Shown: positions 18,827-55,210 of the stretch, piece by piece
Layout of the letters: the number at the start of each line of letters is the position of its first letter
Position numbering within the stretch: the first letter of the stretch is position 1
Origin: Bacteroidota bacterium
GTDB taxonomy: Bacteria > Bacteroidota > Bacteroidia > JABEUT01
Length of the DNA: 64,000 nucleotides
Direction: 5' to 3'
NCBI GenBank assembly: GCA_013288345.1
Contig: JABDCA010000001.1
Coordinates: 141,532 to 205,531 of the forward strand
Notes under the pieces: model-generated
Seen by the model: the letters and a program-made list of their open reading frames with translations, nothing else
Databases searched by the model: none
Told to the model about the DNA's origin: nothing
Made by a program: the position numbers and the translations under genes

Positions 18827-18849
18827 TGCAGCTTTGGATAAGTATGGTT

Positions 18850-18949
18850 GGGTTAACAAAAGTTAACACTTTTCGGGGTATACACTCCATATAATACATT
18901 GATTTTCAGCTTAATTAAGGTTAACACGGGCCTAAAAGTGTTAACCCAC
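18850..18949 (+). other. Copy 1 of a non-coding module ending in GTGTTAACCCAC
   Basis: It lies in the 369-bp gap between sucA and the TPR gene. It starts GGGTTAACAAAA and ends TTAAGGTTAACACGGGCC followed by TAAAAGTGTTAACCCAC (18933-18949). The latter matches TAAAAGTGTATACCCAC at 55150-55166 in 15 of 17 positions. Four GTTAAC sites (18852, 18862, 18920, 18940) and a 12-bp inverted repeat (18862-18873 with 18934-18945) lie inside it. It is related to the modules at 54702-54797 and 55074-55170. No gene is seen in the gap. Confidence 0.6.
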
Positions 18950-54447: not shown

Positions 54448-54673
54448 TAATTACATTTTGAAAATTAGACCTGTTGAAAATTAATTTATCTTTTTATTAC
54501 ATATAATAACTATATTATTTAAATTTGCGTTGTAGTACATCACCCTACCCACTCCCTGTCTGCCAACAGGCAGGCTTTCCCAAAGAGGGGCAGGAATAAA
54601 ATCTGTTCTTTGATTTAATAGCTTCATTTGTATAGTTTCATGAATGAAGGAGGTAAAAAAAAATGCTCTAGTA

Positions 54674-54698
54674 CGACATGGAGCGACATAAAACGACA
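54674..54698 (+). repeat. Three 10-bp-phased CGACA pentamers
   Basis: CGACA occurs at 54674, 54684 and 54694, exactly 10 bp apart (CGACATGGAG, CGACATAAAA, CGACA). They are on one face of the helix, as in an array of protein-binding sites. Confidence 0.75.
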
Positions 54699-54701
54699 GG
54701 A

Positions 54702-54797
54702 CAGGGGTAACAAAAAACAAGGTATTTTCTGAGCCTAAGTACTCATAATCAATAAGTTGATGGGTAACACAAACTAAAATGTGGGTACCCACTTTAA
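54702..54797 (+). other. Copy 2 of the non-coding module, ending in GTGGGTACCCAC
   Basis: It starts CAGGGGTAACAAAA, contains AATCAATAAGTTGATGGGTA, and ends in the perfect palindrome GTGGGTACCCAC (54781-54792) followed by TTTAA. Order and spacing match the copy at 55074-55170: CAGGGG to palindrome is 79 bp here and 80 bp there. Confidence 0.65.
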
Positions 54798-54809
54798 TTC
54801 AATTAAGAA

Positions 54810-54859
54810 TTATTCGTATCTCATTTATTTATTATTGAACTCATGAGGGCTACGCCGTT
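54810..54859. repeat. Solo copy of the 50-bp repeat
   Basis: It aligns without gaps to 12551-12600 with about eight mismatches. It is flanked by a 10-bp direct repeat AATTAAGAAT at 54801-54810 and 54870-54879, which may be a target-site duplication or simple AT-rich sequence. Confidence 0.75.
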
Positions 54860-54919
54860 ACGAATTAAAAATTAAGAATCAAAGACCTTTGCATGCTCTA
54901 CCGACCGTTGTTTTGGGGC

Positions 54920-54993
54920 TATATGTTTTCTTAGTGAGGCTTTGTGTGTCTTTTCTTGGTGTTCTTTGTGGTAAAAATCTTTGCGGCTTTGCG
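54920..54993. repeat. Degenerate CACGGAG-type repeat, reverse orientation
   Basis: TCTTAGTGAGGCTTTGTGTG, CTTGGTGTTCTTTGTGGT and CTTTGCGGCTTTGCGAG read as degenerate tandem phrases that correspond in reverse to the CACGGAG fragments at 18781-18826. Confidence 0.4.
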
Positions 54994-55013
54994 AGAAATA
55001 TTTCATTTATGAG

Positions 55014-55043
55014 AGTGAAAAATAAAAGCAGTAACCGCCAGTT
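55014..55043 (+). repeat. Direct repeat, left copy, flanking module copy 3
   Basis: AGTGAAAAATAAAAGC (55014-55029) followed after 4 bp by ACCGCCAGTT (55034-55043). The same two blocks, with a 5-bp spacer, occur at 55180-55210, where ACCGCCAGTT is the 3' end of the redoxin gene. The pair is attL/attR-like. Confidence 0.7.
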
Positions 55044-55170
55044 TCCGCCAAAAACCGCCATTTATGAATCGGGCAGGGGTTTACAAAATGAGATTATTTT
55101 TTGAATTTATGCAATTGAAAACCAATAAATTAAGGGTTTACAGGGCGGTAAAAGTGTATACCCACTTTTT
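55035..55170 (+). other. Three phased CCGCC pentamers plus copy 3 of the module
   Basis: CCGCC occurs at 55035, 55045 and 55055, 10 bp apart. CAGGGGTTTACAAAA follows at 55074, then ACCAATAAATTAAGGGTTTA, GGCGG, and TAAAAGTGTATACCCAC (55150-55166) with CACTTTTT pairing back to AAAAGTG. The layout mirrors the CGACA module before it and 18850-18949. Confidence 0.7.
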
Positions 55171-55179
55171 TAAGTGAAA

Positions 55180-55210
55180 AGTGAAAAATAAAAGCTCTAT
55201 ACCGCCAGTT
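55180..55210 (+). repeat. Direct repeat, right copy, overlapping the redoxin gene end
   Basis: AGTGAAAAATAAAAGC (55180-55195) plus ACCGCCAGTT (55201-55210). The latter encodes, on the minus strand, the last codons of the redoxin gene (QLAV). Confidence 0.7.

Follow-up and report, generated by a model that had tools for sequence, protein, structure and literature searches.

RAYT-REP systems combine one protein gene with the non-coding sites beside it, and these sites occur in many copies in the genome.

Phage packaging machines offer further points of comparison. The genome of Salmonella holds pac-like sequences, the pseudo-pac sites of phage P22 (excerpt of PMC11226127). In phage lambda, cosB has the order R3-I1(IHF)-R2-R1 and is bound by TerS together with IHF, as set out in the excerpted part of PMC4856287. 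The GTAs compared here are RcGTA, DsGTA, BaGTA and Dd1 (excerpts of PMC11841831, PMC7947584, PMC6854486 and PMC12946183). Discrete packaging peaks are described for DsGTA, and two for CcGTA (PMC11841831, in excerpt), and the excerpted text leaves the cause of the packaging peaks of the shibae GTA unexplained. For the TerS of RcGTA, the excerpted part of PMC6854486 does not implicate conserved equivalents of cos or pac, and that of PMC7947584 agrees for RcGTA. Among the matches listed from CC-licensed PMC papers, seen as excerpts, there was no described Bacteroidota GTA with sites such as those presented below.

The non-coding unit considered here lies in a window of 64 kb (the whole stretch of DNA that was analysed) from a 3.0-Mb MAG of 90 contigs, 87% complete (G000, the own genome). 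Judging from its sequence, the balance of probability tips slightly towards a composite recognition site for TerS-type proteins of a GTA-like system, probably a site at which packaging starts. The unit begins at a promoter-like box, and its 5' part lies outside 54674-55170, the interval described in an earlier, sequence-only reading of this DNA. Its features, together with a third, distant module, are the following:

54473..54527, + strand: promoter-like box GTTGAAAA...TTATTACATATA...TAAATTTG, the sole regex match in the window
54604..54613, + strand: boxA-like motif TGTTCTTTGA
54674..54698, + strand: module 1, phased triplet of CGACA at 10 bp, proposed TerS-2-type site
54704..54712, + strand: module 1, first arm GGGGTAACA
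54747..54759, + strand: module 1, IHF-like site AATCAATAAGTTG with core YCAANNNNTTR
54762..54769, + strand: module 1, second arm GGGTAACA
54782..54790, - strand: module 1, inverted third arm, TGGGTACCC on the + strand
55035..55059, + strand: module 2, phased triplet of CCGCC at 10 bp, proposed TerS-2-type site
55076..55085, + strand: module 2, first arm GGGGTTTACA
55120..55132, + strand: module 2, IHF-like site AACCAATAAATTA, which matches the core and not the full consensus
55134..55142, + strand: module 2, second arm GGGTTTACA
55155..55163, - strand: module 2, inverted third arm, TGTATACCC on the + strand
55199..55208, + strand: single ACCGCCAG, overlapping the end of the redoxin ORF (by eye)
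18848..18949, + strand: module 3, a diverged arm block upstream of a sucA-like gene

The IHF-like sites were scored against what we take to be the IHF consensus, and boxA is presumably the right name for the TGTTCTTTGA motif. The repeats reported by the sequence-only reading are in place: CGACA starts at 54674, 54684 and 54694, at exact 10-bp spacing, and is followed by CAGGGGTAACA at 54702 and, 79 bp on, by GTGGGTACCCAC at 54781; CCGCC starts at 55035, 55045 and 55055 with the same exact spacing, followed by CAGGGGTTTACAAAA at 55074 and, 80 bp on, by GTGTATACCCAC at 55154. The proposed relationship between the modules holds for the block as a whole, which lies far above chance, but not for the literal motif CAGGGGTNNACAAAA, which is not enriched in the window (19 matches with up to three mismatches against 22 expected). 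The inverted arms of the reported palindrome are conserved, but the core is GGTNNACA...YCAANNNNTTR...GGTNNACA-N12-TGTNNACC and not CAGGGGTnACAAAA, and the third copy, module 3, exists but is weak (E 0.013 or 4e-4 in two covariance-model searches) and lacks pentamers. The single ACCGCCAG is possibly a remnant of a third array. Two further intergenic repeats, a CTGCCAACAGGCAGG hairpin at 54556-54577 and CTTTGTGG..CTTTGCGG strings at 54940-54998, were observed within or beside the units; by eye, strings similar to both occupy like slots in other units. For the redoxin neighbourhood, no clear orthologue adjoining a unit was found.

The unit belongs to a large family. A covariance model built from nine copies, two of them the window's and module 3 left out, found 36 places in the own genome at E≤0.0034 and 39 at E≤1; therefore, 27 of the 36 places lie outside the model. 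BLAST of 55030-55180 gave 35 own-genome matches at E≤1, many of them spanning the first-pentamer stretch only. The block of 92 bp consists of the arm GGTNNACA, an IHF-like site, a second arm and an inverted third arm; what is constant in ten copies is GGTNNACA, an AT-rich stretch, ATTGAAAAYCAATnnnTTR, the second arm, 12 bases and TGTNNACC. In the complete unit the promoter-like box comes first, followed in some copies by a boxA-like motif, then by the triplet of phased pentamers and last by the block. Of 30 own loci fetched, one at a contig edge was dropped, leaving 29 with full flanks. Within 600 bp upstream on the same strand, a phased triplet is present in 24 of these 29 (0, 3 and 0 in the controls), a promoter-like box in 19 (0/29 at three control positions, the regex having been drawn from the own-unit copies on which the count was made) and the boxA-like motif in seven (0/29 at each control position).

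Both site types occur together at dozens of places in the own genome. The pattern CSRCM-N5-CSRCM-N5-CSRCM has 31 matches there, each made up of CCGCC alone or of CGACA alone, and in 25 of these triplets a block follows on the same strand in the next 400 bp, against 0.07 expected; conversely, 27 of the 36 blocks have a triplet upstream. The backwards control of this pattern (23 matches) carries no information, since CCGCC is unchanged by reversal. The IHF-like core YCAANNNNTTR is found in 26 of 29 own modules, against a shuffled mean of 0.86, at a position constant within one base in all 26, and the full consensus WATCAANNNNTTR in 12 of 29 against a shuffled mean of 0.14, these being counts over copies that are not independent, since they are related. 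A conserved unit, as had been claimed, is thereby borne out, with fixed order and spacing, phased repeats beside inverted arms and a preferred genetic context. The profile search that had been suggested, run with the nine-copy model, gave matches beyond the own genome as well, in 6 of 40 genomes in all, every one of the same genus; at E≤0.01 there were none in five of the 11 genus members and none in the 29 genomes outside the genus.

Behind some arm blocks a third type of inverted repeat was observed (TGCGACAC..GTGTCGCA, TGGACAC..GTCCA and GGCACAC..GTGTGCC), at L044, L055, L059 and L062 in G004, L067 in G007, and L009 and L028 in G000; a regex matches it in 2 of 29 own units, and otherwise it was seen by eye in G004 and G007.

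The arm sequences vary between and within genomes, and the first and third arms are mostly complementary, with standard pairs in 88.9% of 81 cells. It could be argued that these outer arms pair as the long-range stem of a structured RNA, transcribed as a unit with its promoter and boxA-like motif. The covariation score was reached by 3 of 500 shuffles, and two of nine modules fold, as ssDNA, with z < -4. However, the pairs changed on both sides number three, a value reached by 149 of 500 shuffles, the other seven folds have z > -2.4, and Rfam at the gathering threshold has no match in the window. Moreover, the inner arm copies the first arm, and inverted protein sites would give the same pattern, so a structured RNA is held to be very unlikely.

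The sequence-only reading had proposed recombinase or integrase control or attachment sites, and from general knowledge phased direct repeats by inverted arms do resemble arm-type and core-type sites. The nearest ORFs on each side of the 29 own copies (58 ORFs of at least 110 aa, some cut by the locus edge) argue against this: no integrase, recombinase or transposase is found among all 25 PHROG families matched at E≤1e-10, and the 25 Pfam families listed, out of 80, include none either. A recurring context does exist, as had been anticipated, but it consists of TerS-like genes and the promoter box of phage genes and not of recombinase genes. Sites of a tyrosine recombinase are, in our view, extremely improbable. 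The REP/MITE and integron-attC readings were set aside by eye, with no transposase near.

The arm-IHF-arm-arm block stands directly beside genes of the TerS-1 family. Three blocks in three genomes directly follow a gene for a helix-turn-helix protein of 175-188 aa, and all three proteins match PHROG 24579, 'terminase small subunit' (E 3e-8 to 3e-4), as do six of seven members of the family at E≤0.1 (best 3e-12); all three also match Pfam HTH_Tnp_1_2 (E 1e-7 to 0.003, one of the three above the Pfam cut-off). In the 13 genomes searched, a set to which G009 does not belong, there are ten TerS-1 matches, exactly in the five genomes with blocks. Six of the ten lie within 60 bp of a block (model E 3e-12 to 0.008), and the remaining four, which are distant paralogues, have weaker blocks on one side, two at E 0.002 and 0.009 and two recognised by eye. 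An altered recognition helix (L068, L071) goes with an altered arm (GGTATCA, GGTTTC), by eye only. The AF2 model of a G005 paralogue is modest (pLDDT 71.8, pTM 0.41); the best viral fold match is a DNA-packaging small subunit (E 2.8e-5, TM 0.30), and comparison with PDB structures gave weak matches only, among them phBC6A51 (2ao9, E 0.9). A PDB sequence search with TerS-1 (A5) gave chance-level helix-turn-helix matches only. Searches with the family found no Y1 transposase and one weak IS3-transposase match (17 bits against a cut-off of 160). TerS-1 genes are not adjacent to TerL, and the matches suggest that their products are small-terminase-like.

A scan of GTDB genomes with TerS-1 gave eight loci, four being genus genes already found and four new, in Ferruginibacter, AM3_bin-0905 (two) and bog_950; in the class, five of 198 genomes have a match, of which two belong to the own genus and two others are weak. 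By eye only, arm-like blocks were recognised next to the relatives L078, L079, L080 and L083, and none next to L077; the covariance model found no block beside TerS-1 relatives outside the genus, including these four. A phage collection searched with the Ferruginibacter TerS-1 gave no match.

The phased pentamers directly follow some genes of a second family, TerS-2, other members of which precede TerL. TerS-2 is a small protein encoded before TerL in G000, G009 and G001; it has no PHROG match in two of two members and no Pfam match in the one scanned, and therefore its TerS role rests on position. Among its ten matches in the genus, four have 10-bp-phased pentamers within about 60 bp downstream, each reached by 0 of 2000 mono-shuffles: exact triplets after L172 (CCGCC), L174 (CGACA) and L179 (AGCCA), and a near-exact one after L175 (two CCGCC and one degenerate unit). 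The other six, including the own-genome member before TerL, have no significant phased triplet: L173 has CCGACA twice at 20 bp, which is not significant, and L177, L176, L178, L180 and the fragment L181 show none downstream. The CCGCC triplet of module 2 is also present after an orphan TerS-2 gene in the own genome (G000:C8). In G004, G005 and G007 the place before TerL is taken by a different small gene, and an inverted repeat lies between the two (by eye). Similar in look to the third inverted-repeat type is a repeat between the third small gene and TerL (L186, L187; by eye).

TerL follows the sites across the genus. Besides the own genome, relatives with 58-81% identity occur in G001, G004, G005, G007, G009 and G010, and none of the seven genus genomes that have blocks or uniform arrays of pentamers lacks TerL (Fisher 0.003, based on the author's own sorting into uniform and mixed). 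There is no TerL match in G003, G006 and G008, and G002 has only a distant homologue (35-42%). The pentamer pattern occurs in 9 of 11 genus genomes, of which G002, G006 and G008 have mixed pentamers only, as by chance. Absence was scored in MAGs that are 98% (G002), 70% (G003), 96% (G006) and 61% (G008) complete, and those of G001, G004, G005, G008 and G009 are 52-68% complete. G010 has TerS-2, TerL and uniform CGGCA arrays and no block. In six stretches (L117-L122) these arrays, spaced at 10 bp and accompanied by an inverted partner, are no farther than about 130 bp from a contig end, which suggests that the assembly broke at numerous, almost identical copies.

One promoter box is common to the units, the TerS genes and the phage structural clusters, and the window's box is of this type. 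Six of the 11 genomes in the genus have this box, GTTGWTNAAAAC...TANNTTTG, with 34 occurrences in all and 17 in the own genome, against 2 for the backwards control. Of the own-genome 17, thirteen have a block no more than 900 bp downstream; the other four precede TerS-2 and TerL (C2), the connector...endolysin cluster (C3) and two further genes (L149 on C24 and L150 on C32). Own-genome boxes also precede TerS-1 genes, and with a looser regex one lies just upstream of the own protease and capsid genes, the capsid being 91% identical to that of G005. Thirteen of the 34 boxes were fetched for reading; those of relatives precede the connector, protease and capsid (two), the holin, TerS-2 and TerL, and also groES-groEL (two) and two other small genes. 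The groES-groEL genes have the box in two species (L154, G009:C4; L159, G005:C23), and one flanking ORF of an own unit matches the groEL PHROG.

PHROGs and Pfam support the assignment of TerL, portal, protease, HK97-type capsid, gp6 connector, GH108 endolysin and GTA_holin_3TM. TerL, the gp6 connector and the endolysin were found in G000, and protease and capsid in G000, G004 and G005; the portal was seen only in G009 and G004 (the latter by tblastn) and the holin only in G005. In the own genome, C2 has LpxB, ComEC, PNPase and Mur ligase genes as neighbours, and C3, at two places, lies near PALP and glycosyltransferase genes; the connector...endolysin cluster with its PALP neighbour recurs in G005. 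No integrase or replication genes were noticed in the phage-cluster stretches listed, whose ORF starts were read by eye. The pN/pS ratio is below 0.5 in 13 of 13 pairs, with synonymous sites often saturated (capsid 0.12, protease 0.17, TerL 0.26-0.35, TerS 0.34-0.46, endolysin 0.42). Among the matches listed, the closest phage records share 37% identity with TerL and 32% with the capsid. A 5.5-kb contig filed as viral in IMG/VR (L195, IMGVR_UViG_3300010371_001257) carries protease and capsid beside a glycosyltransferase gene, by eye as in G005, and is probably chromosome, because the cluster adjoins this apparent host gene.

The shared promoter gives rise to the strongest rival explanation, namely that domesticated TerS-like proteins act as transcription regulators and the blocks as their operators or roadblocks, forming a regulon switch and not a packaging system. 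Most units carry the promoter box, which a packaging site would not need, and 19 of 29 own blocks lie downstream of it on the same strand. Some blocks have an operator-like position, flanked by the box and by a host gene, which is groES (in G009 only) or recR, where G000 and G009 have a unit upstream in the same place and orientation, with changed arms and with the triplet in G000 only. Against it, the phage structural clusters have the box and no block of their own (the covariance model found none in the stretches read, except a unit 6 kb from TerL), and by the ORF listing the genes on either side of 6 of 29 own units (the window's two included) converge, which leaves nothing downstream to regulate. 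In addition, arm-IHF-arm-arm is the layout of a packaging site. A regulatory role is considered fairly unlikely.

The number of copies invites another explanation, in which the units are non-coding mobile parasites (satellite-like or MITE-like), spread by packaging and insertion, and the TerS gene copies are their coding version. There are dozens of copies with subfamilies, the neighbours of TerS-1 differ between species, and the contig-end arrays of G010 fit as well. The sucA place of module 3 holds no module, by the model, in G004 and G005, the two relatives found; it offers no clean empty site, because the relatives differ over the whole intergenic stretch. However, the 58 flanking ORFs lack a transposase or recombinase, no target duplications were noticed in an unsystematic look, and the recR unit has kept its place in two species while its arms changed. 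This explanation appears unlikely, although spread as a packaging-linked parasite would be compatible with sites of packaging initiation.

The model favoured here is that of a GTA-like system made of domesticated phage genes spread over the chromosome of a soil Bacteroidota, with the unit as its probable starting site. We infer that TerS-1 would dock on the arms in the way that lambda TerS docks at R3-I1-R2-R1 of cosB, with a bend in the DNA at the IHF-like site, and that TerS-2, probably as an oligomer, would read the helically phased pentamers. The bound TerS would then recruit TerL, which would cut nearby and fill capsids with neighbouring chromosomal DNA. In this way the scattered sites would mark, on the host chromosome, where packaging starts. 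More tentatively, and with rather less confidence than in the recognition site itself, a Bacteroidota GTA may package host DNA from tens of purpose-built starts by means of several interchangeable TerS adaptors that each read a site type of their own; site and adaptor may co-evolve, and sites may spread by favouring their own transfer.

Compared with lambda, the unit appears laid out like cosB, with three arms, an IHF-like site between the first two (as sequence anatomy only) and, in gene-bearing copies, an adjoining TerS-like gene; the likeness is one of layout. Unlike cosB, there are tens of chromosomal copies, the third arm is inverted, phased pentamers are added and no cosN-like cut site was noticed by eye. 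As in RAYT-REP systems, one protein gene adjoins non-coding sites of which the genome holds many, but the protein is TerS-like, with no Y1 transposase match, and the site has 92 bp, three arms and an IHF-like site. Like the pseudo-pac sites of P22, these would be host sites recognised by a packaging machine, here as candidates, and unlike them they form a multi-copy family with conserved anatomy and a promoter box of their own.

The likeness to GTAs lies in phage head, packaging and lysis genes that reside in the host genome in several clusters among housekeeping genes and are kept under selection, and in the GTA_holin_3TM-family holin of G005. RcGTA-type packaging, in which TerS has no DNA-binding domain and starts are not discrete, differs from what was found, as TerS-1 contains a helix-turn-helix and candidate sites of a multi-copy family abut its gene; unlike the GTAs compared, the host is one of the Bacteroidota. 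A GTA-like system with such a TerS and scattered candidate starts would make the question of the shibae packaging peaks directly testable. If the proposal is true, this GTA would choose its DNA where the chromosome is marked and would thereby form a new variant among these systems. It would show that the choice of genes for transfer can be steered by hosts or by selfish sites.
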